From assembly GCA_947172415.1 (NCBI GenBank), contig OX359196.1, positions 5,025,901 through 5,089,900 on the forward strand: a stretch of 64,000 nt of DNA, written 5' to 3'. The position numbers were made by a program, and so were the translations under genes. This stretch comes from Chondrosia reniformis (taxonomy: Eukaryota > Porifera > Demospongiae > Chondrillida > Chondrillidae). Within the stretch, counting starts at the first letter, position 1. Each line of letters begins with the position of its first letter. The notes under the pieces were generated by a model that ran no database searches, was not told the DNA's origin, and saw nothing but the letters and a program-made list of their open reading frames with translations. Below are positions 5,390 to 39,200 of this stretch, in pieces.

Positions 5390-5399
5390 GTATTTCGAA

Positions 5400-5882: not shown

Positions 5883-6262
5883 CTAGTAAGCAATAAATGA
5901 CTTGACTGCAGCAATGATAGCAGTGGAATCAATCTTAAATTCCTTCATCAATTCATCCTTCTTCCCACTCCTTGGCACATCATTCACAGCCATCCTCCTC
6001 ACTTGGATACCCTTCTCTTCACTGACAGCACCAGCCACAGCCTCTCCAAGACCACCTGCAAGTGAAAAGTTCAAAGGTCAACTTATCACCCTCACTTATT
6101 ATTGCTATTACAATATAACATGTTTGTCCCTAACAAAGCCCCAACCTTCCTTCTATCCAGACATTATGGCCCAACTCCAGTTTGCCCGACCTCTAATGGA
6201 TTAAGCCTCTATATGACCTAGCCTCTATTCAAGACCAGCTTCTATAAAAGAGTGGCCCATGT

Positions 6263-6362
6263 AACATACCCTAGCTCTACAGAATGTAACATACCCTAGC
6301 TCTACAGAATGTAACATACCCTAGCTCTACAGAATGTAACATACCCTAGCTCTACAGAATGC
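6263..6362. repeat. 25-base tandem repeat, about 4 copies
   Basis: Unit contains AACATACCCTAGCTCTACAG. It lies in the last intron of the transketolase copy. The other copy has only about one unit at 33,637-33,665. Confidence 0.85.
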
Positions 6363-6749
6363 AACATGCTTTACAAATGTGTTAAGTATTCTGGCTTCCA
6401 GTTAAGGATATACTGCAGATGAAATTCAATAAATATGCTATGCACTTCTGGAGGGTTCTCCTTCCATTATTAGCTCTTAGAATTGACATAGATTATTCGT
6501 AAGAGGTTAAACCTTTGAAGGTTACCTTCAGGATAATGGTCTTCAACTGTGATGATCTTGCCATTAGTTTCTTTGGCGCTAGCAATGAGCAGCTCCTTGT
6601 CAATCGGTTTGAGGCAGAATGGATCAATGACACGGATGTTGATGCCATCCTTCTGAAGAGCATCAGCAGCAATCATGGCCTCTTGGAGGGTGACTCCTGC
6701 TCCCACAACAGTCACCTTGTCACTGTCACTGGAACGTACACACTGCAAA

Positions 6750-6870
6750 AATATGTGTGTGAGAGAGAGGAGAGGGGGAGGGGGAGAGAGAGAGGGGAGA
6801 GAGGAGAGAAGAGAGAGAGAGGAGGGCAGACAGAGGGGAAGAGAGGGAGGGAGGGAGGGAGGGAGGAGTG
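6750..6870. repeat. Purine-rich GA microsatellite
   Basis: Imperfect (GA)n, GGGA and GAGG tract in a transketolase intron. The equivalent tract at 34,058-34,158 has a different length. Confidence 0.85.
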
Positions 6871-8330: not shown

Positions 8331-8430
8331 CAGTAGGGCCTCAATACTGGATATGAGCAGGTCCTACTAACACAGAGCAGCAGTAGGGCCTCAATACTGG
8401 ATATGAGCAGGTCCTACTAACACAAAGGAT
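8331..8430. repeat. 50-base tandem repeat, 2 copies
   Basis: Unit begins CAGTAGGGCCTCAATACTGG. Two units here, five at 35,651-35,900 in block A'. Confidence 0.9.
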
Positions 8431-8457
8431 CCCTATTCCTATTGGTACATACATTGT

Positions 8458-8620
8458 AGGACTCACAAAGATCAAGAAGAAGACAAAGATTCCCAGGATC
8501 ACTGATGAAGGGTGGAATTACCAGAAACGACTGTCTGACCCAAAGGAGAAAGGAAGAAAAGAAGCCTAACTGTATCCTCTCCTCCTCCTCCAAAGCTCTA
8601 TATCTTTATAGGCACAATAA
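8458..8620 (-). repeat. Dispersed repeat R, copy 2
   Basis: Reverse-complement relative of 48,480-48,605, in a transketolase intron. It is duplicated with the block at 35,935-36,095. Confidence 0.6.
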
Positions 8621-9699
8621 CTACCCTTTTCAGAATATGGTGTTTAGATTATTCATATATACATGTACATGTACACAGGACTGACTATTAAAATCACATA
8701 GGTAGGTGTACTACTGTGTAGTGTACATTAAGTGAATTATGCATGCACCAGACAACCTAGCACAACAGGGGCAGCCAGGGTACATTATTCACTTACTAAA
8801 CTAATTAGTATGCCAACCCTTCAAAATACCGACTATCATTATCTCAACCACAACTATCCAAATCCTCTACTAGCTTGGGATGAAAAGGTTTGAATAACGG
8901 AGGATGTACTGTATTAGGTTTATAAGTAGATGGGCCGGCTACCTTTGTATGTCTTGCAGATGAGAGTGGTTGGTTGGCCCTTGCAGTTAGCAGCATCATG
9001 GAAGGCCTTGTTCAATACCTCCACGTCATGTCCGTCCACCACAATAGCATTGGTACTAAGGACGAGTCGGAACAAACCTTAAATACACAACCTTACACTA
9101 CAGCAAACATACACTAGTCTGCATTTAATAAGTAACAGACCAAATATACGTATGTAGACATTTGAATACATCTGCTCAATAATAAACATGTTACGATGCA
9201 TCCCTCTCCCATTTTGTTACTGGGTATCAAGGATAGTAGCCATTGATTAGCTAAAACTTTAAAATAAGAAATTTGAATTTGAATGCTACTATCATCACAG
9301 CTTAAAAATTATACCACTTTCAGGTAACTATATACCACACCTAAAAATTGATTCTCCTGACTTTTCAAAGACTTCACTTTATGCAAATATTACATCAGCT
9401 ATTTCTAGTACAATTTGATGGAAATGCATCTCACCCAAAAGCATCACATCTCTTGCGGTACACTTCCATATTATGCCCCAACATGGCTGCTTCTGATTGG
9501 CCAAGACGGTTAATGTCCAATATGATGCAGAGATTGTCCAGCTTGTAGTAACTGGCAAAGGACATGGCCTCCCAAACGGACCCCTCAGCAGTCTCGCCGT
9601 CACCAAGGATACAGTACACACGATAGCTAAGACAGGGAACAGTCAGTGGTCGATTGATTATACAAACATCAAGGCTTAAATGTAACAGAATGTACAGTA

Positions 9700-10030
9700 T
9701 AGCTAACCTATGTACAGTATAGCTAACCTATGTATAGTATAGCTAACCTATGTACAGCATAGCTAACCTATGTACAGCATAGCTAACCTATGTACAGCAT
9801 AGCTAACCTATGTACAGCATAGCTAACCTATGTACAGCATAGCTAACCTATGTACAGCATAGCTAACCTATGTACAGCATAGCTAACCTATGTACAGTAT
9901 AGCTAACCTATGTACAGTATAGCTAACCTATGTACAGCATAGCTAACCTATGTCCAGTATAGCTAACCTATGTATAGTATAGCTAACCTATGTACAGCAT
10001 AGCTAACCTATGTCCAGTATAGCTAACCTA
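9700..10030. repeat. 20-base minisatellite, about 16 copies
   Basis: Unit AGCTAACCTATGTACAGCAT with small variants, in a transketolase intron. Block A' has about one unit at the same place, so expansion (or contraction) followed the duplication. Confidence 0.95.
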
Positions 10031-10436
10031 TGTCCATATACGTACCTTGATTTGTCATAGTACTTTGCATTGTAAGCCATACCAGCTGCAATGCTAAGAC
10101 CTTGTCCAAGTGAACCAGTGGCAACATCAATGTAGCTTTGGCGCTGTGAAAGGAGACATGCTATCAAATCAAATGTTTTCTCTAACTGTTGTCACTCAGG
10201 TCCACTTACTGGAGTGGGGTGGCCTTCTAGGTCAGAATCAAACTTCCTCAGAGTCTTCAAGTGTTCCTCGGGGATCACTCCAGCCTCTACCAGAGCTCCA
10301 TACAAACCAGGGCAGGCATGACCCTATGACATCACATGACATCACACCATGAACACACATTCACTCTGATAATCACTACTAGTTCATACCTTTGACAAGA
10401 CCAGTCTGTCACTGGATGGATGACGTACAAAGTTGG

Positions 10437-11745
10437 CTACACACAGACAGAGACATGCCAAGAGTACCACATGGAGGCAAGCAAGGAATACATGTAAATG
10501 GAGTTAAGGTAGGATGGTATAAAAATGGCTGCCGCTTGAGTAGAAACAGAAAGGGCTGTACTGTGAGACCAAACAAACAGGCTCACAACAGAATGTAGGC
10601 TTCAGCAAGTAGGTGGGTATAGCATGTGGAAATTCTTGTTTGGAATGGAATGAGTTTGAGGAAGTCACCATACCACTTGTCAGTGATATATTATTACACT
10701 TTCATATTTGGACAAGATAGTTAGCTAAAGAATCCTGCTAACTGTGTTTAAAGACAGTCAAGGAGGCTATGCCTTCTGTAATTAGCTACATCAGGAAGGC
10801 ATCTACTGGTATACCTAGTGAGTTTTACTTTCCTATTCTCCCTAAAATGCTAATATCTATGTGGGAGGGGACACAGCCTCTGTGCCCATCCAGTCACATG
10901 ACATCAAATGGAGAGGGCTGGCTAAGATGAGACGGACACAGTCTGCCCCCATCTTCTAGTTTAAATATTACAGGTTGCTGATATATTATGAAGATAGGCT
11001 ATGGACTGAAAATGATTTCAAGGAAGCCAACAGTTTCAGGAATATCTATTAACATTCTGTCCACAGTCAATTTGTACAAGAACACCACTAAATTGAAAGC
11101 AATCTACTCTTGCCAAATCTATAATCCCATTAATCCATTCATAAGCCATCAAATTCACATGGCAGCCTATACATGTACAAGCTGAACATTACAATACAGT
11201 TGAGCATGATGGTCTAATAGTAATGTGAAGTGCAGCTGTTGAGAGCTTGTTGAAAACCAATAACACAAGAATGAATTGAAAGGTTACAACAAGAAGACTT
11301 TGAAATATATAACTGGATGTGACAAAAACATGTTTTCCAGAACATCTTTAATAAGCTTTTAGTCTTCTTTGCTGACAACACTCAATAGAAGAGTATCATA
11401 CAACTAAAATATTAACTTTTCTATCATGGATAACTCTACAATAACTACCAACAAACAATTGTAATTACAACAATTAGTAATAGAGGCTTTTTGCAACAGA
11501 TTAGACTGTCTCAGAGATAGCATTACACGGGCGTACCAAAGCACACACCTTATTCACACTACAGTCAGCACACTGTAACAACAGACTACTGCAAAGCTCA
11601 CACCACCATACACTATATTGTATTGTGGCTTTGTGTTATTGTATTTGTATAGGCAATCACTTCAATATTAATACTCATACATTGTCATTGAATTACTACC
11701 ACAAATAAAATTGCAGTTCTTTGACTCAAACTTGATAATAAAAAC
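10437..11745. other. Partial transketolase intron up to the block A edge
   Basis: Matches 37,645-39,005. No exon seen. Similarity stops at about 11,745, before the sequence equivalent to transketolase exon 2. Confidence 0.7.
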
Positions 11746-12676
11746 AAATTTCTTCTATAACTTCAGTAGACTGCCATTTTTAGTAGGTGCTATTACTGTC
11801 ATTCAGTCAGATATGGTAGCTAGATGCAAATCGTCCAGGGATTTTGGGATCAGCCTGGTGAGTGTTCGTTCTCAGAAAATAGCTGATGCTTTCCCTATAC
11901 TAGATTCTGTATAACTCTAGTGTGCAAGTCGATTTTAAGTTATACTGTATATGCATGTGTTAGCGTTTTAAGTAGCTTTGATAAATATAAGCCAAGCGTG
12001 GCCGGCCAAAATTTTTACATTTACACTGAATTCTAATTTTGTGCAACTACTATGAGTCATGCATGACCTTGCAACTGAAGTGGTTCTAAGCAGTTTGCTA
12101 TATACATGTATATTATATTTCAGTTTGTAGACCCATGTGCAGGAAACAGTTTAGAGGTGTGTCAGTTTATACAATTATATAAACACCAAGTACAACAGAT
12201 CCTGTCAGGTGATACTCCATAATCGGTACTTTCCAAGGGTAAACACCTTACTACATTTTTATTTTAGTAGTTACTTGGTCTGAATCATAATAGATCTGGC
12301 AATTTTACAGTGAAAAGGGGCAAGTGAGTATTATTATTATTTTATCAGGAATGTCCCTTCAGCTCTCAGCTGGTCTTCCAGGGAGTCCTGTAATTACAAA
12401 CATCACAGCTAAACAAATTATAAATTAGTTAAAATCAGTTATAATCAGTCAACAATCAGTTTGGGCAGGTGTTAATGTAGGGGGTGTCTCTTTCTTTCTT
12501 TTTCTCTCACTGCCCTGGAGGTGAGCCCTGGCCATCCCATTGCTTTATAATCTGTATCTTCACTGTTAGCTTCCAGGCCACCAGCACCCCCTATGTGTAT
12601 ATATGAATGCATACATCATAGCTAGTGATTAATAATAGTATGTATCATTATATACTCTCATTTCCCTTCAATTAGT
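11746..12676. other. Unique spacer
   Basis: No coding region or recognisable element seen. AT-rich, with some C/T-rich stretches near 12,490-12,540. Confidence 0.5.
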
Positions 12677-20068: not shown

Positions 20069-21764
20069 TTATTTAAACCATCCCATGGGATTCCATGATT
20101 TCTTTCCTGGGGCTACAGGTGGCTGGTTGGTTGCAGCTGTTGGTCCAAAGTCCACTTTATAATTAGGGTCTTCAATATCTTTCATAAATTGGGCATTCTT
20201 TCTGATTTTTTCTAGGGATTGAATTTGTCTATCAAATCCTGGCTTGGCTTCCCTCTTCTCTGATTGTATGAGCAAGTCAATGTAATTAACCTCATTCAAT
20301 GGATCTGGTTTCAGAGCAATTTCATTCAGACGTTTTAATATAGCTCTGGTTTGCTTGATCATATCCTCTACTTGAGTTTGAATATTGGCCAAATCAGATT
20401 TCAGCTTACCAATGAGGCTACTTGAGTCAAACATACCAGTTTTAGCATCATCATACTTTGCCTTCAAATCGTGTGATGTTCTGGTTTCCTTTTCCTGATA
20501 GAGTTCAAATCGGTAAGGATTGTTGAAATGGCAATCCCAATAGCATTGTCCTGGACAAACTGTGCAGTATTTAGTTGAACTGTCCATTGCTACACAGTTC
20601 TTTTTATCTGAGTCATTAGGCAAGGCACAAGGATAGTGACAAGTAAAATTGCATATAAGGCAATTGGTGACATATTCACCAGGTTTTAGATCAACTTTAC
20701 GCTGCTTGTCTAGGAGTACCTCATATACAAAATCCTTGTTAGCAGCCTTCATGTCAGTTTCATGCTGTTTAAGTACTCTCTCTTCTTGCCTAAGTTCATA
20801 CATCTTGCTTAGCCCAGCTCGTATCTTTGGTTGCAAGCCTTGAATAAGTGCTTCCAGCCTTTCCCGCTCATCCAAAACCTGATTTGTCAGTGTCAAGCTT
20901 CGGCAATTCATTTGATTTAACATTTTAAAAAATACATCCAGACTTTGCATTCCCATTTTCCAGAACATCTTGTCAAAAACCACCGAATTTTCTTCAATTT
21001 CTTCCTTGGCATAGTTTAAAGCAAAAAGGGCAGAAAAAGCGAAAAAAGGATTTATCCAGCTTATCAAAGGTAGGAAGCTTTGCCTCCTCCATAGCAGCAA
21101 GTATTGGAGGCTTATGTCTATCTACAAATGTGCACATGACAAAAAAAATTTCACCAATGTCTCGACCAAAGATACTTAGAATTGCATCAAATATATACTT
21201 TTGTGAATGTGTAAGTCGTGCAAGAGATGCCTGGGCAACAAATCCTATGCCATCAATGTGATCTATACCATTTTCACCTTGACAAGAAAATAACTCCTTT
21301 ATTTGGGCAGTGATTTGTTTGTCCCTTTCTATGCCCTGAGTGTCACCAAATCCTGGTGTGTCAATGATCATTAGGTCATAGGTAAGAGGTGATTGTGGCT
21401 CTCGGTGGAATTTGTAAGCTGTTATCCATGTTGTTTGGCTTTTTGCTTGGCTGTGGGCAGTATCTTCATCTACCAGGCGAAAGCGAAAGTCACTTTCCCA
21501 TCTAACCCCATAGATGTAATTGGCCATTCCATTTATATATATAAGTGTTGTCTTTCCAGCCCCAGTTGCCCCAACAACCATAAAAACTCTTTCTTTATCC
21601 CCAGATGCATTTATAGTTGACCCATCAGTACGACCCACTTCTACTATGCTAATTCTGTGGGTTTGATCTTCCTTAAGTACTCTTCTAGGAAGTTGATAAA
21701 CATCAATGGGTTCTGGGTTATTGTGAATTTTTGTGCTTTGTTGCTTCATTTTTTCAGCAATAGC
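20069..21764 (-). pseudogene. AIG1-like GTPase exon, frameshifted copy
   Basis: Same protein as 25,302-26,960: P-loop GATGAGKTTL, switch motif DTPGFGDT, then a coiled-coil-rich part with a Cys cluster and the ending KKSWNPMGWFK. Relative to the other copy, 5 bases are missing near 21,030, which moves the frame just after TFDKLDKSFF. Short in-frame insertions occur after the P-loop and near 21,460. Upstream exons (SAM-like, linker, CARD) are absent. It is likely a pseudogene, unless the shift is a sequence error. Confidence 0.75.
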
Positions 21765-22149
21765 CTACAGAAAATACATGGATGAAAGTCTCATGAAAAA
21801 GAGTGGTAAGCTAAAGCTTATAAGCAACTATTTATAATTGCTTACAGACATCACCAGTTAGTTGTATTTACAAATTATTACTTGCTAATGGGCTCTTAAT
21901 TAAATATTCCATGATTTTTCCAGATGAAAGGTCATAATATGGGAGCTGAGCTGATTAAGTATTCAAAACATTGGATACTACCTATGTACAGTATATATAT
22001 ATACTCCACAATTTATCATCATAGCCTTTGCACATGCAGGTTAGGCACAAATAATTCCCTTTTATAGTTGATATAGTCCACTATCTAGTTGTAGTTGTAG
22101 TTGTGTCCGCGCATTGAAGTCAGGCTAAGGTTGCAGCACACATAATGAG

Positions 22150-22670
22150 GACTGGGCCTGCACTTCACTTGATTAATTACACTGTCTCTGCCATGTCAGG
22201 GTCCTTTAGTGCATCCAGTCTAGCCTCACCCTGGGAGACATGTCAACAGCACAGCTGCATGACTACTCACTGTTTGCTGCAGCTGCCAATGATGTCTGCA
22301 GGGAACACCTACCAACTGTCCAAGCCAGGAAGAGAGAAAAACCATGGGCTGACCAGGATGTTCACGCAGCTAAGGATACAGCACACACAGCTAGATATTC
22401 GGGACTCAGTAATGAAGAACAAAGATAGTAGAGGCTATAAGGACTCTGTCCACTGTCTACACCAAGAAGCAGGAAGAGAACTACTCACACCAGTGAAGTG
22501 TCGGCCACCGTGGTGGAGGGAAGACATATTGCATCACGGAGCGCCATTAACACTATAACCAGGCTTTAGACAATGGGAGCACACCCCTTAGGAATGGAGG
22601 CAGGCATGTCTGTTACCCCTCTTCAAAAAGGTGATAGGAACTGTTGTGCCAACTACAGAGGGATTTTGCT
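22150..22670 (+). mobile_element. LINE fragment with inverted 5' piece
   Basis: Plus-strand frames give AREKPW-like linker sequence (ARKREKPWADQDVHAAKD) and then PLFKKGDRNCCANYRGILL, a typical start of a non-LTR reverse transcriptase domain, in different frames. The first 90 bases are the reverse complement of 4,697-4,780. It stops at the kinase fragment that follows. Degenerate and truncated at both ends. Confidence 0.7.
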
Positions 22671-24387: not shown

Positions 24388-27310
24388 TTTTATTTACAAT
24401 AGCATGCAGTCTTTTATGTCATTTGTCAACCTGAATCCTAAGTATTTGCTCAGTTTTTTGCAGTAACTGTTGTATTATAATGTTTTAGTTTTAATCAAAT
24501 GCCAATTAAATTAAATGTGGACTACGACTTTTACTATAATTTTATAGGAATATGGATTGCCTTCAAATGTACACCCCTTTGATGTTATTCTCCTTAGCCA
24601 TACCTGGGTTATCCAGAAACCTGAGATAATCGACATGGGAGGTGTTTTTATAGGACTTTGCAATTGCTTGATTGTACAGAGTAATGAATAAGGATTACAT
24701 GTACGTAGGTTCATCTTTGGATTTTTGAGCGTCTAGAATCATCAAAGAAAACAGTCATATTTAAAACATTTGACAACCATAAAAACATCACCAACTGCGT
24801 GTCTAGATGCTCAAAAATACCAAGGACCAATGGCTAAGGACTGGAAAGAGTATATGAGGACAAAGTGACGAAGAGTGTTTCCATGGTAGACATTTCATTT
24901 TATATGGGGAACCACCTGCGCCATGCATGATTGCATTCCAGAGATCACCTGTCACCAAGACTACAGTTTCATCAGTGGACTCTGGATTTACCCCACCCAC
25001 TCATGTCCCCTGAGGAGCTCAATGAACTAATAGGTGGAGTCAAAGTTCACTTAACAGGAACCAGATCTAGAGGTTCTCCTTAGCCACAGAGGACTTTATG
25101 ATTACAATATATTTTATTATTATTATTATTATTATTATTAAAGTGCCCATGCATGTACATACATTGTGGTGTAGATATATGCCAACCAGTTCTGGCTATA
25201 TTACTTGTTTCATTATAAACTACATTATATAGTATTTGCTAATAACTATAGTAGTAGTATAATTCACTCAGTTATGTAATGCTAATTAATACATACATAT
25301 GTTATTTAAACCATCCCATGGGATTCCATGATTTCTTTCCTGGGGCTACAGGTGGCTGCCTGGTTGCAGCTATTGGGCTATAGTCCATTTTATAATTAGG
25401 GTCTTGAATGTCTTTCATAAATTGGGCATTCTTTCTGATTTTTTCCAGGGATTGAATTCGGCTTTTAAATCCTGGTTTGGCTTCCCTCTTCTCTGATTGT
25501 ATGAGCAAGTCAATGTAATTAACCTCATTCAATGGATCTGGTTTCAGAGCAATTTCATTCAGACGCTTTAATATAGTTCTGGCTTGTTTGATCATATTCT
25601 CTACTCGAGTTTGAATTTTGGCCAAATCAGATTTCAGCTGATCAATGAGGGTATTTGAGTCAAGCATACCAGTTTTAGCATCATCATACTTTGCCTTCAA
25701 ATCGTGTGATGTTCTGGTTTCCTTTTCCTGATAGAGTTCAAATCGGTAAGGATTGTTGAAATGGTGATCCCAATAGCATTGTCCTGGACAAACTGTGCAG
25801 TTTTTAGTTGACCTATCCATTGCTGGGCAGTTCTTTGTGTCTGGGTCATAACAAGGATAGTGACAAGTATAATTGCATGTGATACAATTGGTGACATATT
25901 CCCCAGTTAGATCAACTTTACGCTGCTTGTCTAGGACTACCTCATATGCATAGTCCTTGTTAGCCTTTATGTCAGTTTCATGCTGTTTAAGTACTCTCTC
26001 TTCCTGCCTAAGCTCATCCATCTTGCTTAGCCCGACTCGTATCTTTGGTTGCAAGCCTTGAATAAGTGCTTCCAGCCTTTCCCGCTCATCTAAAACCTGT
26101 TTTGTCAGTTTCAAGCTTCGGCAATTCATTTGATTTAACCTTTTGAAAAATACATCCAGACTTTGCATTCCCATTTTCCAGAAAAAGTTGTCAAACTCCA
26201 GGGAAACTTTATCAATTTCTTCCTTGGAATGGTTTAAGGCAAAAAGGGCAGAATTATTAAAGCAAAAAAAGGATTTATCCAGCTTATCAAAGGTAGGAAG
26301 CTTTGCCTCCTCCATAGCAGCAAGTATTGGAGGCTTATGTCTATCTACAAATGTGCACATGACAAAAAAATTTTCACCAATGTCTCGACCAAAGATACTT
26401 AGAATTGCATCAAATATATACTTTTGTGAATGTGTAAGTCGTGCAAGAGATGCCTGGGCAACAAATCCTATGCCATCAATGTGATCTATACCATTTTCAC
26501 CTTGACGAGAAAATAACTCCTTTATTTGGGCAGTGATTTGTTTGTCCCTTTCTATGCCCTGAGTATCACCAAATCCAGGTGTGTCAATGATCATTAGGTC
26601 GTAGGCAAGAGGTGATTGTGGCTCTCGATGGAATTTGTAAGCTGTTATCCATGTTGTTTGGCTTTTTGCTTGTACCAGGCGAAAACGAAAGTCACTTTCC
26701 CATCTAACCCCATAGATGTAATTGGCCATTCCATTTATAAGTGTTGTCTTTCCAGCACCAGTTGCCCCAACAACCATAAGAACTCTTTCTTTATCCCCAG
26801 ATGCATTTATAGTTGACCCATCAGTACGACCCACTTCTACTATGCTAATTCTGTGGGCTTGGTCTTCCTTAAGTACTCTTCTAGGAAGTTGATAAACATC
26901 AATGGGTTCTGTGTTATTGCGAATTTTTGTGCTTTGTTGCTTCATTTTTTCAGCAATATCCTACAGAAAATACATGGATGAAAGTTTCATGAAAAGGATT
27001 GGGAAGCTTATAATTGGTTATGGACATTGGAAGTTAGTAGTATTTACAAATTATTACTTGTTAATGTTGTTTTGAAATATTTCTTGTATATATATATACG
27101 TATAATAATGACATGCATAGCAGTTAAAGAAAGAAGAGTAAATTATATACCCAGGGCTCTTAATTAAATTTTCTTTGATTTTTAGATGAAGAGGTCATAA
27201 TATGGGAGCTAAACAAAGTATTCAAAACATTGGATATACAATACCTATGTATATATAGTCTACTATTTATCATTATAGCCTTTGCACGTGCAGGTTAGGT
27301 GCAAATAATT
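24388..27310. repeat. Duplication block C2
   Basis: Direct duplicate of C1 (19,243-22,140). It contains the intact AIG1-like exon. A (TTA)n microsatellite at 25,110-25,140 is specific to this copy. Confidence 0.85.
25302..26960 (-). CDS. AIG1-like/septin-like G-domain exon with coiled coils
   Basis: One open exon of about 553 codons, from an acceptor TTCTGTAG (first residues DIAEKMKQQSTK, phase 0) to a TAA stop. Residues 50-70 hold the P-loop GATGAGKTT, followed by DTPGFGDT (G3) and an FVDRHKP segment where G4 is expected. Residues about 260-350 and 430-510 are charged and heptad-like. Between them lies a Cys/His-rich patch (CITCNYTCHYPC, CTVCPGQCYWDHHF) that may bind zinc. The fold fits AIG1/GIMAP or septin-like GTPases of the type seen in fish and invertebrate immune-related families; its function is unknown. 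Same-strand, phase-0 exons upstream (27,873; 28,865; 30,125; 31,330; 32,421) could make a CARD-SAM-AIG1 protein. Confidence 0.75.
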   Translation of the reverse strand, partial: DIAEKMKQQSTKIRNNTEPIDVYQLPRRVLKEDQAHRISIVEVGRTDGSTINASGDKERVLMVVGATGAGKTTLINGMANYIYGVRWESDFRFRLVQAKSQTTWITAYKFHREPQSPLAYDLMIIDTPGFGDTQGIERDKQITAQIKELFSRQGENGIDHIDGIGFVAQASLARLTHSQKYIFDAILSIFGRDIGENFFVMCTFVDRHKPPILAAMEEAKLPTFDKLDKSFFCFNNSALFALNHSKEEIDKVSLEFDNFFWKMGMQSLDVFFKRLNQMNCRSLKLTKQVLDERERLEALIQGLQPKIRVGLSKMDELRQEERVLKQHETDIKANKDYAYEVVLDKQRKVDLTGEYVTNCITCNYTCHYPCYDPDTKNCPAMDRSTKNCTVCPGQCYWDHHFNNPYRFELYQEKETRTSHDLKAKYDDAKTGMLDSNTLIDQLKSDLAKIQTRVENMIKQARTILKRLNEIALKPDPLNEVNYIDLLIQSEKREAKPGFKSRIQSLEKIRKNAQFMKDIQDPNYKMDYSPIAATRQPPVAPGKKSWNPMGWFK

Positions 27311-27872
27311 CCCTGGGGGAAGCTCTATAACAGAGTGTTATTCAATTTGATAAGTGGAGAAGTCAAACCATTACTATATGTTACAACCAGAATGGTTTCT
27401 TTAAACATTAACCAGTCACTCCCCCCCCCCCCCTTTTTAATTTCAAATATTCTACTGTATTTTTCATTGATTAAAAATGGCTGCCTGTAAATGTTTATCA
27501 ATCGCATTTTCACACCATGTAGACTACAGTAGTCTATATAATGTGCTATCATAATGCCAAAAATAGTATTCACAGTTGGTGATAAATTCTTCTGAAATTC
27601 TTTTAATATGTTGGGAAATTTGTCAGTTTACAATGCAATGTGCCCACAACCGTTATCCAAGCAATTTAACCTTATTGACAGTATGCATAAAGTCTGTCAT
27701 TTCAACATGGTTATTCTTGCAGATATACATATAAGTCAGACTAAACAGAATCAGTTCTTTATAGTATATACATAGGCCCCCTCATTTATCAAAGTCACTT
27801 TAGGATTCAGAATTAAAATCCTGCTTTTGCACAAATAACATATTTAAGGAAAGGGTGTGTGCTTGTCCTTAC
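27311..27872. other. Intronic DNA upstream of the AIG1-like exon
   Basis: No exon seen. Contains a poly-C run at 27,421-27,433. Confidence 0.5.
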
Positions 27873-28067
27873 TAGAGTTGTATGTTGATTCCAATGGTTG
27901 GGGGGAGAAGTAGTCATTTTAGAGTTCTGAGGAGTAGGAAAATTTTGCGTAGGTTGAATTGCATGCTGAGGAGACATCAAGATGGTACTACCCATTCCAG
28001 CAAATGTAGGGTTTTGATTGTACATTCCTTGAGAGTTATGACTTTCAGGCCTTTGAGTATTTGTTAC
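27873..28067 (-). CDS. Pro/Gln/Asn/Thr-rich linker exon
   Basis: 65 codons between acceptor ACTATAG and donor GTAAGGAC, phase 0 at both ends (VTNTQRPESHNSQGMYNQ... to NHWNQHTTL). Low-complexity, likely a disordered linker. A possible further exon at about 28,240-28,325 (YYDDDIDALRSALDLEV) is weaker. Confidence 0.55.
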
Positions 28068-28534
28068 CTATAGTAAAACAAAAAAGAAAGTTTTCATTAA
28101 AATATATCAGTAGACAATTAAAAAATATGCACATATGTACACTAAATCAGAAAGTAGGCATGGTGCCGTACTCTCTTATAAGCACACACAAGTACATGTA
28201 TGATTCAAAGATATGATTGTGTGTACCACTGTAATATGGAAAAATAGGGGAACTTCAAGATCTAAAGCCGATCTTAAAGCATCAATGTCATCATCATAAT
28301 ACCCAGAGTTTAATGATTGTGTGTACCACTGTAATATCACCTCATGTAGAAACCAGTCAAAAGTATTCAAGTACTATATATGCAAATACAAATAGTTGAT
28401 TTAAATATCACAAAATTGCTTGGTTTTCCTAATTCATTTATCGCAATACTAGAAATATGCATGTGTCATTCTTGTAGATGATAGGAAAACAACGTAAGAG
28501 TGAGCGAAATCGTTAAATAGCTAATGGCTAAGTG

Positions 28535-29140
28535 AAATTTTCTGACTTTAACAAAGACACAGTTCCTTCCCTGAATGCAAAGATACGTTTCAGCTCATAA
28601 TGGGGGCCATCAACTACTGTTTACAGTGAGATTTACTATTTAATAGGCTATATGGCATAACAGGTAGTAAAATAAATCTTTATTGTCTCTATTACAGTAG
28701 TTCTTCGTGCTTTTTTAGCCATTTCGATCCCAGGCTGCTCAAATTATAATTGCCACAATTTGAAGACTTAGTTGCTGTAAACACAACACACTAAATACAT
28801 ATTTTGTTATTACTGGCTATTCCAATTGGGATTGTCAATAATTACCAATTTCTCATCAACTTACAGTGTGGCTTTCTTTAAACTTTGGTTTTGATGGTAA
28901 ATGCCTCTCTAATGGTGTTTTACTCTAAATAAAATATCAGAAGGAGAAGCGTTATATATATCTATTTCACTCTCTCTATATACATATACATATGCAGTAA
29001 AGTGGTCATTCTCTGTTTGCAAACTCCTCCTGCAGCTTGCATACGATCAATCCGAAACTTAAACTCTTAAGGAGTACCAAAAGGAGTGTCATAAGGGGAG
29101 GAAACATTGGCAGTGACTAGCTACTTGTGTTATACTTTCA
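28535..29140. repeat. Partial copy of block A left part
   Basis: Matches 3,545-4,245 and 30,900-31,610 with a roughly 120-base deletion. Carries the second copy of the 60-base linker exon. Confidence 0.8.
28865..28924 (-). CDS. 60-base linker exon (copy 2)
   Basis: SKTPLERHLPSKPKFKESHT, phase 0 both sides, with the same acceptor and donor as copies 1 and 3. Lies between the SAM-like and Pro-rich exons. Confidence 0.5.
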
Positions 29141-30124
29141 CTTTGTCACAGATGGCCTGGACGGTTTGAGTCCCAAGCAGTCCAGTTTTTCGCTTTTGTT
29201 CAAATTTATATACATATATGAATTTCCTTAATACTGACATGACCAGCCACAAAAGCAATACAAATTGTTTAGTAACACAACAGATTTGATGTACATGCTT
29301 TGCAATTGAGGGGAAAAAATTTATATTATTCTCCAGAAAGAATATAGGTACTGTTATTGAAGCTACAATTAACATACTACATAGTAAATTGGTTAACAAA
29401 TAACTCTATAGTATTCACTATCACAACCTACTTATAGTACTTATATACTAAGAGGAGGTACTTCCTAATTAAACAAGTATTTTGAGTTCAAAAAAACTCA
29501 TGGGGCACCCCAAACATGGTTAAAGAGACTATTAATTTGGTAACTTGCACACAAGGACATACGTAGAAAGCTGAGGCCTTTATATATGTCATATGATGTC
29601 CCTTGTGTTGATTGTAATTAATAATTTGTAGTTGTACTGTGTAGTGTACTTGATTGTAATTAATAATTTGTAGTTGTACTGTGTAGTGTACTTGATTGTA
29701 ATTATGTATCTGAGTGACTTGTAGCTTCAATTCATTTCTATAACAACTTTCTGAACACCAGTTTCACCCTTCCCCAGGATATATGCATATTAATTAATAT
29801 TCTACATCTGTATTGAAGTACGTATCGTGCCATTATGTAACCATTTTATCCACCTTTGTGTAAGGTTAATTTTTAATAATTTCAGCTGGAGGAAGGATGA
29901 AATATCCCAAAACTTTTGTGAAGTGTTTCATGCAGTTTAAATAGTGCACTCTGATTAATTAAGAAATGTAACAATGGGCATAATTTTTATGACAAAAATT
30001 GAATGAAGTTATTTCTTATGACAACCTGGGCTTACTGCATAAAGCTTTGATCTATAATGGTAACATTTCTTGTACATACTGGGATATATAGGCTTTGATA
30101 AAACAAGTATATGGGAAGTCTTAC
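29141..30124. other. Intronic DNA with a 41-base tandem repeat
   Basis: At 29,608-29,705 the unit containing TTGTAGTTGTACTGTGTAGT recurs about 2.3 times. No convincing exon. Confidence 0.5.
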
Positions 30125-30391
30125 CATTGATGTCTTTAACTGTGCCTGTAACAATTCAACTCGTTTACGAGATCCTAATTTCGGGAAAAGTTCCTTAAAT
30201 TCATCACTGGTCAGGTTCACAAATAGCTCCTTATCAATTCGATTATCTATTAAGGTAGCAGTGGATTCTTCATCAAGGTTTGCTCTGATGTATTCATAGA
30301 ATTCACTTTCTTCATCATCTTCTTGGGTAGCAATTTTGGACGACTTTGTAGAGCCAGGGAATGTTTTAGCAGCCATAGGTTTGGGAACATC
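30125..30391 (-). CDS. SAM-like domain exon
   Basis: 89 codons between acceptor ACAACAG and donor GTAAGACT, phase 0 at both ends. After a Ser/Lys/Asp/Glu-rich start it reads FYEYIRANLDEESTATLIDN, ELFVNLTSDEFKELFPKLGS and RKRVELLQAQLK, the helix spacing of a sterile alpha motif. SAM domains usually oligomerise. It would sit between the CARD-like exon and the AIG1-like exon in a spliced product. Confidence 0.6.
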
Positions 30392-31329
30392 CTGTTGTTC
30401 AAAATGTTTAAAAGCCAGTAAATGTACATATAAACATACATACTACATATATATTACAACTGCACAAATGGAATTTTCTATGCATATATACAGTACACGC
30501 TGAAATAATGCATACACTCGTGAGGGTCAAGGTCAATGAACTCTAACAGTCAAGTGAAGGGCTGGAATAAATCTTAACAAAAACTTGACTTCGAGGGCAC
30601 TAGTGCAAGGTCTATAAGGTCTTGCCATATCTACACCTTTTTTGTATTTTGAATAAGAATAATATCGTGCTTAATCAACATTTTTTATTTATCGAATCTC
30701 TTGAGGGCCAAATGTACTTGACTTCAAAATATCTCTATAATTTTGGCCGGTTTCTTCTATTGTTCAGGGTTGTTTTATTGTTCATAAAAGTTCAGGATGT
30801 AAAGCTCATTTTAAAGTAAGTGATTTTTATTAGGACATTGTTTGATAGAAAACAGAGGACAAAGTCTGCCTATAAAAGACCATAAAACTATAGTAAGTAG
30901 TAAAATTTTCTGACTTTAACAAAGACACAGCTCCTTCCCTGAATGCAAAGATACTGTTCAGCTCATAATGGGGTCCATCAACTACTGTATACAGTGAGAT
31001 TTACTATTTAATAGGCTATATGGCGTGTCAGGTAGTAAAATAAATCTTTATTGTCTTTATTACAGTAGTCCTTCATGCTTTTTTAGCCATTTCAATCCCA
31101 GGCTGCCCTAATGCCATGGCAATGGGGTACAATAGAATTGGTATAGGACTAAGTTGTTGGTATAGATATATATAATTAATTATGTGTTATTAAGAATTTT
31201 CCAGGTATTATAATTGCCACCATTTGAAGATTTAGTTTACTGTAAACACAACACACTAAATACATATTTTGTTATTACTGGCTATTCCAATTGGGATTGT
31301 CAATAATTACCAATTTCTCATCAACTTAC

Positions 31330-31389
31330 AGTGTGGCTTTCTTTAAACTTTGGTTTTGATGGTAAATGCCTCTCTAATGGTGTTTCACT
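31330..31389 (-). CDS. 60-base linker exon (copy 3)
   Basis: SETPLERHLPSKPKFKESHT, phase 0, flanked by the same splice signals. Directly downstream of the CARD-like exon in block A'. Confidence 0.55.
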
Positions 31390-32057
31390 CTAAATAAAAA
31401 TATCAGAAGGAGAAGCGTTATATATATCTATTTCACTCTCTCTATATACATACGTATGCAGTAAAGTGGTCATTCTTTGTTTGCAAATTCCTCCTGCAGC
31501 TTGCATACGATCAATCCGAAACTTAGAACTCTTAAGGAGTGCCAAAAGGAGTGTCATAAGGGGGGAAACATTTGCAGTGACTAGCTACTTGTGTTATACT
31601 TTGCATTTAAATGATTAATATTGTCACAGATGTTACTAGGAATTTTCCAGGTGAAAGTCTCATGAAAAGGAGAGGTAAACTTATAATTGGTTATTGGAAG
31701 TTAGTAGTATTTACATATTATTACTTGTTAATGTTGTTCTGAAATATTTATTGGGTATATATATTAATGGCATGCGTACCAGTTCAAGAAAGAAGAGTAC
31801 ATTATATACCCAGGGCTCTCAATTAAATATTCTTTGATTTTTCTAGATGAAGAGGTCATAATATGGGTGCTTAACAAAGTATTCAAAACATTTATACAGT
31901 ATAGTCTACTATATATCATCATAGCCTTTGCACATGCAGGTTAGGCACAAATAATTCCCTTTTATAGTTGATATAGTCCACTATCTAGTTGTAGTTGTAG
32001 TTGTCTCTGCACATTGAAGTGAAGTCAGGCTAAGGTTTGCAGCACACATAATGAGGG

Positions 32058-32166
32058 CTCCCAGGGTGAGGCTAGACTGGATGCGCTAAAGGACCCTGAC
32101 ATGGCAAATACAGTAATCAATGAAGTGAAGGGCAGGCTCAGTCATGTCGACAGCACGAGCATCGAA
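32058..32166 (+). mobile_element. LINE ORF2 fragment (block A' copy)
   Basis: Same as 4,697-4,806: plus-strand ARLDALKDPDMANTVINEVK. Confidence 0.5.
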
Positions 32167-32420
32167 ACATGTTTTGGTATTTACAAAAACGGCTGCAAAA
32201 CACTCGAATGCAACCGGAAATCCTATCGTTGTGGATTTATGAGGTGTTAATTGATAATACATTGGATAATACATTGGATTGGCCATTCCTACTAGGAGAA
32301 TACGGAATGATATTTTTTTAGGAATCTCCTGATGATGTTGTAACACACACAAATCAGATCATTTGTGTGTGTTACAACATCATTGACAATAAATGCACAC
32401 ACAGTACTTATACAATTTAC

Positions 32421-32759
32421 TTCAGACTGTCTTGATAATGACTGAATTCTCACTTCATGGACTGCGCCTTCTAACTTTTGAGCCATCTCCTCGTGTACTT
32501 TATAGTTTGAAGAGGTATCTCGGAGAACTTTAATGAATCTCTCAACCAACTCTACCGTCCCGCTGGTATACAAGTGATCGATCAGTGCTTCGTTTGCCTC
32601 TTTTAAATTGCTCTTATTCTGAATGGTCTGCATAAGCGGCATGTCGATAATTTCTTCAACAAAGAGGTCTTCTCTGATATCCTTTGTGCAGAGCTGATTC
32701 ACCAAGATGGCGTAAACCGACTGAATGGCATCTCGTAATGGAGAGCGAGAGAGAGCCAT
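32421..32759 (-). CDS. CARD-like death-fold first exon (block A')
   Basis: 113 codons from ATG at 32759 to the putative donor GTAAAT, phase 0. Differs from the block A copy at about ten residues (for example DLFVEEIIDMPLMQ against DLFAQGIIDMPLKQ), none disrupting the frame. Downstream on this strand lie a linker, SAM-like, linker and AIG1-like exons, all phase 0. If spliced together the product is CARD-SAM-AIG1 GTPase, the layout of an intracellular sensor or scaffold; this is inference. Confidence 0.6.
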
Positions 32760-33251
32760 GTATTTCGAACAGTTACACGCTCAAGGGATCTCTTGATCAT
32801 AAGAGTGCACGTTTTTCTACAGGATCTCCATAGTGGTTTAGGTGGGTGTGCCAGTATTGGCTACGCCCACATCCTGGGGCTATATACTGCTAACTAAGGT
32901 TCTCTAACTGTATGTACACATGGAAATGACACACATGAAAATGTTAACAGAAAACATAAGAAGTGAATACGGAGCTTAAATTATCAAAGTTTTAATACAA
33001 TCACCTAAACGAATCTCTTTTGTATCAATATGGGAACAATTCTGCCTCAAACTTAAAGGGAACGCATACTAATATGCTTTATCTAACATTTGCTACAACT
33101 AGCTTATTCTGTAGCTTGACAAATTATTGAGATTAACATCATTTTGAGAACAAACAATTCCAATTAATTTTGTTCTTCTAATTGTTACATTCACTACTAT
33201 AATTCTAACAACCTAAATTGGTACAATTGCAACACTTGTACTGTTAGTAAT

Positions 33252-36200
33252 CTAGTAAGCAATAAATGACTTGACTGCAGCAATGATAGCAGTGGAATCA
33301 ATCTTAAATTCCTTCATCAATTCATCCTTCTTCCCACTCCTTGGCACATCATTCACAGCCAGCCTCCTCACTTGGATACCCTTCTCTTCACTGACAGCAC
33401 CAGCCACAGCCTCTCCAAGACCACCTGCAAGTGAAAAGTTCAAAGGTCAACTTATCACCCTCACTTATTATTGCTAATGGGGGGAGTCATTACAACATGT
33501 TTGTCTGTAACAAGCCCCAACCTTCAATTCTAACCAGGCATTATGGCCCATTTCCAATTTGACCGTTCTCTAATGGATTCAGCCTCTATATGACCTAGCC
33601 TCTATTCAAGACCAGCTTCTATAAAAGAGTGGCCTACGTAACATACCCTAGCTCTACAGAATGTAACATGCTTTATAAATGTGTTAGGTATTCTGGCTTC
33701 CAGCTAAGGATATACTGCAGATGAAATTCAATAAATATGCTATGCACTTCTGGAGGGTTCTCCTTCCATTATTAGCTCTTAGAATTGACATAGATTATTC
33801 GTAAGAGGTTCAACCTTTGAAGGTTACCTTCAGGATAATGGTCTTCAACTGTGATGATCTTGCCATTAGTTTCTTTGGCGCTAGCAATGAGCAGCTCCTT
33901 GTCAATCGGTTTGAGGCAGAATGGATCAATGACACGGATGTTGATGCCATCCTTCTGAAGAGCATCAGCAGCAATCATGGCCTCTTGGAGGGTGACTCCT
34001 GCTCCCACAACAGTCACCTTATCACTGTCACTGGAACGTACACACTGCAAAAATGTGTGTGTGTGAGAGAGAGGGGAGAGGGAGAGAGGGGGGAAGAGAG
34101 AGAGGAGAGAAGAGGGCAGATAGAGGGGAAGAGAAGGGAGAGGGAGGGAGGGAGGAGTGTGCATTACTATGTACAGTGGGGATTAAAAGTAAATAACAAT
34201 TTAAATGCGTGCTACTCATGTGCCCTTCGAGTACTTGTTCAAGTAAAATAATACTCGCAATCTTTAACACCTTCGGCGCAATGATTATATTATACATACA
34301 TTGCTAAACTAAGTAACAATAACTTCATGTGTGTGCACACACATACTGCTAACCTTTCCCTTGCCAATCTCAAAGACCTCGTCCTTCTTGTAGATGACTG
34401 GAGTTTCAGGTCTGCTTGTACGTGTGAAGGTGATTCCTCTGTAGTTGGCAGCCAGTTCAATGGCTCTCTCGCAGGAGACCGCATCACTGGGGTAGAAACA
34501 CACAGCACGAGGAACAGTACGGAAACAGGCAAAGTCCTCCAGGGCCATCTGAGAGGGACCATCCTCACCTACAAGTAAGCAAAAAATCTCAACCTGAATC
34601 CAGCAAATATTTCTCATTAAAAGTTACAAGATGAACACTCGATCAACAGCTAAATGATAATCTACTACTATAGAGTGTAATAACCAATAAATCCACTATT
34701 ATTGTGACATGCCATACAAAGAACTGAAATCAGAAAAAAGATGGCCCAACCAGGTTTGGTTTACAAGTCACATAAAGTATATTGTAAAGTGTACATATGA
34801 ACATCTACGTAAACTTTACTAACCAATGAGCATCTATTGTAAAGTGTACTAACCAATGGAGCATCCAGCATGTGACCCAACAAAGTTTACTTCAGTCTGA
34901 GAGATGGCTCCCATCCTGATCTGGTCAAAGGCTCTTGTGAAGAAAGCTGCAAAGGTGCTCACAAAAACAATGTTACGATGGCGTGTGCCCAGTCCAATAG
35001 CCACTCCCACAAGGTTCTGCTCGGCAATGAAGCATTCCACATAGCGATCAGGAAAGGCATTCTTGTAGGTTAGGGAGAAGGTGGAGTTCTTAGTGTCTCC
35101 ATCTAGTGCAACAATACGCTCATAGGATTTCCCAATACTGACCAAGGCATTACCATAAGCTTTACGAGAGGCAAACTGTAGTATGAACAAGAATTATAAA
35201 TAGTCATAAGGTGCTTTTAACTGTTTATGTATTAGCATAAAGGCATGGTGATTGTGCAATAAGCAATAACTATTGCGCAATCATACCAGGCTGGCCTATT
35301 AAGTATGTGATGCTGTAAAACCTATCACAATACTTGCATAACTGAGATTAACAAATCAACCAGCAATACAGACGAAGAGCAGTCGATCCCTATTAAGGTG
35401 GACTAGCTGCTTATGCCCACCTTTGAGCCAAACTCATAGTTGGGTGGAGCAGAGAGGGTCACTTTGGGGAAGTTGACTGTGGGAGCATCATCAGTGAAAG
35501 GCTGCATGGTGAGTTTCACATTTGGGTTCTTGATCAACTTCTTGCAGGCCTCAATAGAAATGTCAGCCTTGGCCCCTAGGGGCTTACCGTGCCAGTTCTC
35601 CAAATCCTCAACACCTGGAAAGCCCTTTCCTACAACCAGAGACAACAGAGCAGCAGTAGGGCCTCAATACTGGATATGAGCAGGTCCTACTAACACAGAA
35701 CAGCAGTAGGGCCTCAATACTGGATATGAGCAGGTCCTACTAAAACAGAGCAGCAGTAGGGCCTCAATACTGGATATGAGCAGGTCCTACTAACACAGAA
35801 CAGCAGTAGGGCCTCAATACTGGATATGAGCAGGTCCTACTAAAACAGAGCAGCAGTAGGGCCTCAATACTGGATATGAGCAGGTCCTACTAACACAAAG
35901 GATCCCTATTCCTATTGGTACATACATTGTAGGACTCACAAAGATCAAGAAGAAGACAAAGATTCCCAGGGTCACTGATGAAGGGTGGAATTACCAGAAA
36001 CGACTGTCTGACCCAAAGGAGAAAGGAAGAAAAGAAGCCTAACTGTATCCTCTCCTCCTCCTCCAAAGCTCTATATCTTTATAGGCACAATAACTACCAT
36101 TTTCAGAATATGGTGTTTAGATTATTCATATATACATGTACATGTACACAGGACTGACTATTAAAATCACATAGGTAGGTGTACTACTGTGTAGTGTACA

Positions 36201-39200
36201 TTAAGTGAATTATGTATGCACCAGACAACCTAGCACAACAGGGGCAGCCAGGGTACATTATTCACTTACTAAACTAATTAGTATGCCAACCCTTCAAAAT
36301 ACAGACTATCATTATCTCAACCACAACTATCCAAATCCTCTACTAGCTTGGGATGAAAAGGTTTGAATAACGGAGGATGTACTGTATTAGGTTTATAAAT
36401 AGATGGGCCGGCTACCTTTGTATGTCTTGCAGATGAGAGTGGTTGGTTGGCCCTTGCAGTTAGCGGCATCATGGAAGGCCTTGTTCAATACCTCCACGTC
36501 ATGTCCGTCCACCACAATAGCATTGGTACTAAGGACGAGTCAGAAGAAACCTTCAATATACAACCTTACACTACAGCAAACATACACTAGTCTGCATTTA
36601 ATAAGTAACAGACCAGATATACGTATGTAGACATTAGATTACATCTGTTCAATAATAAACATGTTACGATGCATCCTTCTCCCATTTTGTTGCTGGGTAT
36701 CAAGGATAGTAGCCATTGATTGGCTAAAAATTTAAAATAAGAAATTTGAATTTGAATGCTACTATCATCACAGCTTAAAAATTATACCACTTTAAGGTTA
36801 CTATATACCACACCTAAAAATTGACTTTTCAAAGACTTCACTTTATGCAAATATTACATCTGCTAGTTCTAGTACAATTTGGTGGAAATGCATCTCACCC
36901 AAAAGCATCACATCTCTTGCGGTACACTTCCATATTGTGCCCCAACATGGCTGCCTCTGATTGGCCAAGACGGTTAATGTCCAATATGATGCAGAGATTG
37001 TCCAGCTTGTAGTAACTGGCAAAGGACATGGCCTCCCAAACGGACCCCTCAGCAGTCTCGCCGTCGCCAAGGATACAGTACACACGATAGCTAAGACAGG
37101 GAACAGTCAGTGGCCAATTGATTATACAAACATCAAGGCTTAAATGTAACAGAATGTACAGTATAGCTAACCTATGTATAGTATATAATGTACATACGAA
37201 TGAATGTAAATGTACAATATTAAATACAATTCCATATACGTACGTACCTTGATTTGTCATAGTACTTTGCATTGTAAGCCATACCAGCTGCAATGCTAAG
37301 ACCTTGTCCAAGTGACCCAGTGGCAACATCAATGTAGCTTTGGCGCTGTGAAAGGAGACATGTTATCAAATCAAATGTTGTCTCTTCTGATAACTGTTGT
37401 CACTCAGGTCCACTTACTGGAGTGGGGTGGCCTTCTAGGTCAGAATCAAACTTCCTCAGAGTCTTCAAGTGTTCCTCGGGGATCACTCCAGCCTCTACCA
37501 GAGCTCCATACAAACCAGGGCAGGCGTGACCCTATGACATCACATGACATCACACCATGAACACAGATTCACTCTGATAATCACTACTAGTTCATACCTT
37601 TGACAAGACTAGTCTGTCACTGGATGGATGACGTACAAAGTTGGCTACACACAGACAGAAACATGCCAAGAGTACCACATGGAGGCAAGCAAGGAATACA
37701 TGTAAATGGAGTTAAGGTAGGATGGTATAAAAATGGCTGCCGCTTGAGTAGAAACAGAAAGGGCTGTACTGTGAGACCAAACAAACAGGCTCACAACAGA
37801 ATGTAGGCTTCAGCGAGTAGGTGGGTATAGTATGTGGAAATTCTTGTTTGGAATGGAATGAGTTTGAGGAAGTCACCATACCACTTGTCAGTGATATATT
37901 ATTACACTTTCATATTTGGATAAGATAGTTAGCTAAAGAATCCTGCTAACTGTGTTTAAAGACAGTCAAGGAGGCTGTGCCTTCTGTAATTAGCTACATC
38001 AGGAAGGCATCTACTGGTATACCTAGTGAGCTTTACTTTCCTATTCTCCCTAAAATGCTAATATCTGTGGGAGGAGATACAGCCTCTGTGCCCATCCAGT
38101 CACACGACATCAAATGGAGAGGTCTGGCTAAGATGAGACAGATATCTATGTGGGAGGAGACACAGCATCTGCAGCCATCCAGTCACATGACATCAAATGG
38201 AGAGGGCTGGCTAAGATGAGACAGACACAGTCTGCCCCCATCTTCTAGTTTAAATACTACAGGTTGCTGACCTATTATGAAGATAAGCTATGGACTGAAA
38301 ATGATTTCAAGGAAGCCAACAGTTTCAGGAATATCTATTAACATTCTGTCCACAGTTGATTTGCATAAGAACACCATTAAATTGATACCAATCTACTCTT
38401 GCCAAATCTATAATCCCATTAATCCATTCATAAGCCATCAAATTCACATGGCAGCCTATACAAGCTGAACATTACAATACAGTTGAGTGTGATGGTCTAA
38501 TAGTAATGTGAAGTGCAGCTGTTGAGAGCTTGTTGAAAACCAATAACACAAGAATGAATTGAAAGGTTACAACAAGAAGACTTTGAAATATATAACTGGA
38601 TGTGACAAAAACATGTTTTCCAGAACATCTTTAATAAGCTTTTAGTCTTCTTTGCTGACAACACTCAGTAGATGATTTTCTATCATGGATAACTCATAAC
38701 TACCAACAAACAATTGTAATTACAACAATTAGTAATAGAGGCTTTGTGTAACAGATTAGACTGTCTCAGAGATAGCATTGCACCAGGTACCAAAGCACAC
38801 ACCTTATTAACACTACAGTCAGCACACTGTAACAACAGACTACTGCAAAGCTCACACCACCATACACTATATTGCATTGTGGCTTTGTGTTATTGTATTT
38901 GTATAGGCAATCACTTCAAAATTAATACTCCTACATTGTCATTGAATTACTACCACAAATAAAATTGTAGTTCTTTATTGACTCAAACTTGATAATAAAA
39001 ACAAACTTCCCAAGCCATAATAGATTCATTCAAGCAGCCTTACTAACAAGTTGCATGCAAGCGAGTCACATAGGTCATACTGGATTATGCTAGGATAAAT
39101 GACTTTAATTAGCCAGCTACAAATAACCCTTTAATTTAAGGAATATATAGTTGCAGGGGATCATCTGGAAATGGTCCATCTCAACTTCCCAGCTGATTTC

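Follow-up and report, generated by a model that had tools for sequence, protein, structure and literature searches.

How one and the same death-fold exon came to head two genes with different GTPase backs is the question raised by a pair of loci, here called A and A', that lie 27 kb apart in the genome of the demosponge Chondrosia reniformis. The stretch analysed (referred to throughout as the window) comprises 64,000 nucleotides, C8:5025901-5089900, and the genome that was searched holds 117,379,552 bases in 15 contigs; in the published genome note, 14 chromosomes add up to 117.37 Mb, with a mitochondrial genome listed in addition (PMC12181767). Locus A' occupies window positions 25302-32759 on the minus strand and opens with an exon encoding a CARD, and the first-pass annotation of this DNA had described a near-identical CARD exon in locus A, a description that agrees with the 89% protein identity between the two. 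We consider it probable (roughly 0.7), reading from the sequence, that A' forms a single gene, that its first exon is a copy taken from an NLR gene, and that its product would combine the CARD with a SAM domain, a Pro-rich linker and a GTPase of the AIG1/septin type.

The CARD exon and its NLR relatives

The source of the CARD exon emerges from a search of the genome for further exons of this type and for what follows each of them, a check that the first-pass annotation had proposed. It returned at least 14 close copies (62-100% identity) and 137 weaker ones, eight of the close copies being followed by a NACHT; 150 of the 151 matches are listed, and the counts are lower bounds, as the best 150 of 228 candidates were scored for CARD and 77 of 123 for NACHT. 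The NACHT search used a neighbouring NACHT open reading frame (ORF) as its query, which scores 70 bits against Pfam NACHT, and each of the eight loci with the most similar NACHT (67-100%) has a member of the 14 CARD exons immediately 5' of it on the same strand (L011-L016, L019 and L021, with CARD-NACHT gaps from under 0.4 to 3.6 kb). The remaining six copies are the window pair, L017 and L020, which contain one and two internal stops, respectively, and L018 and L022, neither of which has a NACHT 3' of it among the matches listed (L022 was read for 9 kb downstream and L018 for 1.5 kb). No window exon is among the 81 NACHT matches listed.

The resemblance to NLR genes extends past the borders of the exon. 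Window positions 32897-32352 run from about 140 bases 5' of the exon through the exon itself into the beginning of intron 1, and are 82-84% identical to the NLR loci L013 and L014. In a DNA tree of the 14 CARD exons, which was midpoint rooted and is drawn with 3 of its 11 inner forks open, the window pair has the NLR copy L011 as its sister (support 95/95) and falls within the NLR copies. By these sequence comparisons the window CARD exon is an NLR first exon and, because it is nested among NLR copies, transfer from an NLR gene to a GTPase gene would be the simpler reading of the direction.

The exon's identity as a CARD draws on its family and on a predicted structure. The window exon itself scores 17.0 bits against Pfam CARD (PF00619), below the cut-off of 23.9; 17 of the 21 aligned family members match Pfam CARD at E<=0.1, with a best E of 4.8e-05. 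An AlphaFold2 model built from the 21 aligned rows contains six helices, with a mean predicted local distance difference test (pLDDT) score of 84.7. Most similar to it in the PDB are CARDs, namely those of NLRC4, APAF-1, CARD8 and caspase-9, apart from a designed protein that ranks second; the best E is 0.082, and the Foldseek E never falls below 0.001. The APAF-1 CARD reaches a template modelling (TM) score of 0.73 over the query, and the model is a six-helix death fold closest to CARDs.

Two relatives of the exon occur in other settings. The close CARD copy L017 (C8:1521326-1521661) retains the ATG of the first exon and stands in frame within an ORF that extends beyond it; a ROC-COR-like ORF lies immediately 5', and here a former first exon may now be an internal or last exon. 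At L024 (C6:6708852), an ankyrin-repeat ORF is followed immediately by a segment that is 36% identical to the window CARD and has no Pfam match.

Segment X and the exons of locus A'

The CARD and the GTPase of locus A' are connected by a piece of intron sequence that we call segment X. A genome search with the copy from the intron 3' of the A' CARD exon yields four matches, all of them in this cluster: 3' of the CARD exon in A and in A', and 5' of the GTPase exon in A' and in copy B, a duplicate of that exon; the same four places are recovered when the search is made from the other side. In a four-way alignment the CARD-side and GTPase-side segments resemble each other as far as TTTCATGAGACTTTCA, which lies shortly before the GTPase splice acceptor, and diverge beyond it. 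Copy B also contains 88 bases of CARD-side intron, inverted and 90% identical. Since segment X is common to the CARD-side and GTPase-side introns, it links CARD and GTPase in one ancestral unit, and the simplest history would start from an older CARD-X-GTPase gene, either with the linker, SAM and Pro-rich exons entering later or with rearrangement of its duplicates. The possibility that segment X is a dispersed transposon was ruled out by its four genome matches, all within the cluster, a rejection that is strong and not absolute, as the search skips very common words.

The first-pass annotation had laid out A' as a series of CARD, linker, SAM-like, linker, Pro-rich and AIG1-like pieces, and all of them were found in place on the minus strand (Table 1). 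It had also assigned phase 0 to both ends of each exon, and the borders next to AG and GT, read by eye in the sequence, agree. The linker is present twice because positions 28531-29138 and 30899-31602 form an internal duplicate pair. The putative Pro-rich exon has no Pfam match.

The GTPase exon encodes the sequences GATGAGKTT and DTPGFGD, which we take to be the P-loop (GxxxxGK[ST]) and the DxxG switch, respectively. In the protein scan it scores 30.4 bits against Pfam Septin, over the cut-off of 26.2, and its scores against Pfam AIG1 (PF04548) are 25.6 bits as protein and 27.2 bits in the genome search, for a cut-off of 27. Septins lead its list of PDB matches (best E 0.00013). Judged by these scores, the A' GTPase sits between AIG1 and septin.

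For the SAM-like exon, Pfam gives no hit, and comparison of its sequence with the PDB gives at most a weak match to BICC1 (E 0.75). Folded alone as a single-sequence model it forms five helices, and residues 31-89 average a pLDDT of about 80. The model has 44 PDB matches, of which 28 are SAM domains by title, 3 are SARM1/TIR-1 (presumably proteins with SAM domains) and 13 have other folds; the best probability is 0.96, with weak E values (best 0.69). As modelled, the exon conforms to the five-helix SAM fold.

The duplicated block, locus A and copy B

The claim that one CARD front is joined to two different GTPase backs through segmental duplication finds support at the DNA level. The fronts of A and A' lie in a block of about 8.4 kb whose two copies have their common ends at 3333 and 30695 (3333-11752 and 30695-39009, in pieces 92-98% identical), and which contains, in addition to the CARD exon and linker, part of a gene that we take to be a transketolase. 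Beyond the block, locus A carries the ROC-COR-like exon, of which a paralogue with 95% identity is found at C8:5100500-5102449. Homology of the 5' side of this paralogue with locus A breaks off at window position 3328, five bases from the block start, and locus A is therefore read as the block placed before an existing ROC-COR-like gene, with the junction located 5' of the P-loop exon in a modelled intron. Since the paralogue holds 947 bases before its P-loop exon (L046 8271-9218) that are absent from locus A, the P-loop acceptor of locus A would differ from that of the paralogue, and its position is a predicted one. The 947-base insert is possibly a DNA transposon. A dispersed repeat of about 115 bases at 30782-30896 lies within 100 bases of the block end and recurs in at least 39 other places.

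The names that the first-pass annotation gave to the two backs, ROC-COR and AIG1, call for two reservations: the back of A' falls between AIG1 and septin, as described above, and that of A is sub-threshold as a ROC-COR. The latter scores 17.6 bits against COR-A, under the cut-off of 35.3, compared to 22.0 for the paralogue and up to 30.4 for related frames on chromosome 2. The P-loop exon of locus A carries GPSGAGKS, but the scan against Pfam Roc gave no hit for it at E<=0.1. The PDB search with the ROC-COR-like exon gave nothing informative. From these scores, the fair name for this back is "ROC-COR-like", meaning divergent and sub-threshold.

An origin of the CARD front within the ROC-COR family was also considered and rejected. 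A same-strand CARD lies 3' within 5 kb in 17 of the 68 ROC-COR matches and 5' only in locus A, which is thus the exception among the 68, and no CARD match is listed near the paralogue at C8:5.10 Mb. Arrays of ROC-COR-like ORFs occupy C2 0.6-3.6 Mb and C10 1.0-2.6 Mb, and many of these ORFs have a CARD exon, or an exon of the second lineage described below, directly 3'.

Genome searches with both the CARD and the SAM-like exon found no match beside copy B of the GTPase exon. Copy B departs from the A' exon at 15 of 696 sites in its first part (about 2%, with a ratio of nonsynonymous to synonymous substitution rates, dN/dS, of 0.31) and at 64 of 876 in its second (7%, dN/dS 0.57). The two ratios count in favour of the one-gene reading of A', and the uneven divergence suggests that gene conversion acted on one end of the GTPase copies. 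A third transketolase 3'-end fragment, at 18816-19243, adjoins copy B.

Table 1. Positions of the features of loci A and A', segment X, copy B and the duplicated block in the window; a slash marks an exon border.
Feature	Position	Strand	Remark
A' first exon, ATG + CARD, 113 amino acids	32421..32759	-	donor GAA/GTAAAT, phase 0
Segment X, intron 3' of CARD exon in A'	31652..32056	-	genome search query
A' linker 1, putative exon of 20 amino acids	31330..31389	-	phase 0-0
A' SAM-like exon, 89 amino acids	30125..30391	-	phase 0-0
A' linker, second copy, putative exon	28865..28924	-	within internal duplication
A' Pro-rich exon, putative, 65 amino acids	27873..28067	-	phase 0-0
Segment X, immediately 5' of GTPase exon in A'	26979..27314	-	83% to 31652-31960
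A' AIG1/septin-type GTPase exon, 552 amino acids, Cys-rich insert	25302..26960	-	stop TAA
Segment X, 5' of GTPase copy B	21890..22150	-	
GTPase copy B, reading frame broken	20069..21764 (or to 21812)	-	duplicate of A' GTPase exon
CARD exon of locus A	5051..5389	-	89% protein identity to A'
Linker of locus A, putative exon	3971..4030	-	
P-loop exon of locus A	2673..2891	-	inferred acceptor ctatag/TGG
ROC-COR-like exon of locus A, 653 amino acids	638..2599	-	
Duplicated block, locus A copy: transketolase part + CARD + linker	3333..11752	-	
Duplicated block, A' copy	30695..39009	-	

Recurrence, alternatives and known systems

The placing of a CARD-like or death-fold-like sequence before an AIG1-type GTPase match recurs elsewhere in the genome. 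Seven of 44 AIG1 matches are preceded by a CARD match on the same strand, at most 8 kb away (two on C9, four on C7 and the one in the window); adjacency counts here and below use 150 of the 151 CARD matches and 72 of the 73 second-lineage matches, a GTPase-only match being left out. The other AIG1-CARD neighbours among the 44 comprise three with the CARD downstream, which by our reading is the CARD of the next gene in a tandem array, and one with the CARD upstream on the other strand. A second lineage is represented by an open frame of 602 amino acids, stop to stop, at C1:9642335-9644140, in which an N-terminal domain is followed by a GTPase that also carries the Cys-rich insert (it is 23% identical to the window GTPase over 406 columns). 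Among 71 other copies of this N-terminal domain, the nearest partner within 4 kb is a NACHT match on the 3' side in 30 and a ROC-COR match on the 5' side in 15, always on the same strand, with no pairing in any other orientation. The Pfam scan detected neither a CARD nor a death domain in the five members scanned or in the N-terminus of the 602-residue frame, and the match of the lineage to the CARD alignment profile is weak (probability 16, E 0.0016); the name "death-fold-like" that we give it derives from its position and this weak profile match. Three points go beyond the suggestion that exon shuffling operated in an innate-sensor-like family: the front comes from an NLR, segment X independently links CARD to GTPase, and a second, death-fold-like lineage repeats the pattern.

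A number of observations speak against a single, functional CARD-SAM-GTPase gene at A'. Between A and A' the CARD exons have a dN of 0.053 and a dS of 0.035, with no sign of purifying selection since the duplication, and they differ at 16 of 339 sites as compared to 50 of 1989 in the non-coding part of the block (Fisher p 0.032); selection on the CARD since then would have been either relaxed or diversifying, which argues against strong constraint. The linkers of A and A' differ at 3 of 60 sites, with no coding constraint visible. The CARD donor in both loci is GTAAAT, without a G at +5, and the SAM-like exon has one genome match, itself, and no relative. In the recurrent cases, the CARD-like exon L005 on C9 has no Pfam match at E<=0.1, L025 on C7 scores 23.0 bits, just below the cut-off of 23.9, and the intron phase after the CARD seems to be different in the putative C7 gene, so that the C7 CARD-AIG1 arrangement may be an independent fusion. 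The 66 pairwise comparisons among the 12 other CARD copies, with L017 and L020 counted in, give a median dN/dS of 0.28, and the CARD exon family as a whole is therefore constrained; the corresponding value for the ROC-COR-like exon and its paralogue is 0.60. The donor is GTAAGT in L012, L013, L014, L018 and L019 and GTAATT in the sister NLR copy L011, and since the latter also lacks a G at +5, such a donor is not peculiar to the window pair.

In a rival reading, the CARD exon would be an orphan, copied with its flank and yielding a CARD-only decoy or nothing, with the SAM and GTPase exons forming a separate gene. The CARD ORF reads on into the intron to a stop at 32292, the donor is of the kind just described, the exon has diverged at least as fast as its introns, and two of the 14 close copies (L017 and L020) carry stops. 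We nevertheless regard an orphan exon as unlikely, as segment X connects the intron after the CARD with the GTPase exon, both window CARD ORFs remain open over 113 codons while being 12 amino-acid differences apart, and a death-fold-like domain shares one open frame of 602 residues with the same GTPase subfamily. Somewhat less doubtful, while still short of even odds, is that both kinds of product exist, with CARD-only and CARD-SAM-GTPase transcripts arising from one promoter by alternative splicing or polyadenylation; the donor without +5 G and the open read-through would suit this arrangement, and a snail AIG gene is described as having splice forms with and without its DD-CARD (PMC7053062). 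An assembly artefact, in which two haplotypes or a mis-joined repeat created the second copy, is very improbable. The blocks are 92-98% identical, and the k-mer completeness of 69.43% stated for the primary assembly (PMC12181767) was taken as a sign of heterozygosity, but the two blocks differ in their flanks, the mean HiFi read, at about 13 kb (10.31 Gb in 0.80 million reads, PMC12181767), exceeds the block length of about 8.4 kb, and each CARD exon has a neighbour that is not shared (the SAM exon or the P-loop exon) at a distance of about 2.2 kb or less. A tandem haplotype artefact was rejected on account of the different flanks.

Under the preferred reading, in which A' is one gene with an NLR-derived first exon, homology, tree and shared intron sequence show that a segment of a CARD-NACHT NLR, made up of 5' flank, CARD exon and the beginning of intron 1, was placed in front of an AIG1-type GTPase exon, beside the transketolase gene. 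Later duplications, which the block ends reveal and whose order we infer, copied the GTPase exon to give copy B and carried the transketolase-CARD-linker block 27 kb away, before a ROC-COR-like gene. By analogy with the families concerned, the GTPase would switch on GTP by dimerising or oligomerising, as in septins and GIMAPs, the SAM domain would help to cluster the protein, and the clustered CARDs would nucleate a CARD filament to which effectors carrying a CARD are recruited. The closest listed CARD match outside the 14-copy family is the C-terminal segment of a protein kinase ORF at C14:4461194 (40% identity), which would make a RIPK2-like kinase a candidate partner; the ORF scores 116.5 bits against Pkinase, and its own CARD, at 13.2 bits, falls below the cut-off. 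With about 140 bases upstream of the ATG included in the copy, both window genes may also share NLR-like regulation. Tentatively, and with the odds leaning against it, the pattern could be generalised to a portable first exon (promoter-near flank, CARD and phase-0 donor) that spreads by segmental duplication among nucleotide switches of three unrelated kinds (NACHT, AIG1-type and ROC-COR-like), such that different sensing modules feed one CARD channel under related regulation and the sponge would assemble its intracellular immune sensors combinatorially; the second lineage has the same three partners.

CARD-AIG1 proteins are already known from snails and lancelets. In Biomphalaria glabrata, a DD-CARD and an AIG1 domain occur in one protein, as in A', with a coiled coil in the snail (PMC7053062), whereas the sponge GTPase is intermediate between septin and AIG1, has a Cys-rich insert and is accompanied by a SAM domain; the sections of that report drawn on here name no exon common with NLRs. 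The lancelet CARD-AIG1-HINT GIMAPs likewise have an N-terminal CARD before AIG1 and are linked with apoptosis and inflammation (PMC12373286), but no HINT domain is seen in the sponge locus; architectures with an N-terminal CARD and a C-terminal HINT are described in the same source as amphioxus-only among animals. In the sponge Dysidea avara, where CARD-NACHT-LRR genes have been counted, the CARD-NACHT NLRs (NLRC) carry an N-terminal CARD as A' does (PMC12909245), and the NACHT of Chondrosia is fronted by the same exon family, whereas in the window loci an AIG1-type or ROC-COR-like GTPase replaces the NACHT. IAN/GIMAP genes of D. avara are reported to respond to microbial consortia, and Amphimedon is said there to be without them (PMC11229196). 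Brown algal ROCO genes are similar in being candidate immune ROC-COR GTPases subject to exon shuffling (PMC11378527), although LRR exons are shuffled in the algae and a signalling N-terminus in the sponge. Lophotrochozoan RIG-I-like receptors exchange CARD/death N-termini via exon-intron changes (PMC8998645), the recipients being helicase receptors there and GTPases here.

A full-text literature search found no paper joining 'domain shuffling', NACHT, CARD and AIG1. The origin of innate-immune receptors is usually inferred from ancient domain lists, and the case presented here is a young one whose DNA scars can be read: an NLR source exon, junctions, shared intron sequence and a broken by-product copy. 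It suggests that the reuse of one exon can build new immune-sensor-like genes, it makes testable the idea that signalling domains and nucleotide switches mixed freely in early-branching animals, and it links AIG1/GIMAP-type GTPases to an NLR CARD exon within the same animal. Elsewhere in the window, an ORF at 61647-62774 resembles what we take to be a nucleoside diphosphate kinase 7 homologue.

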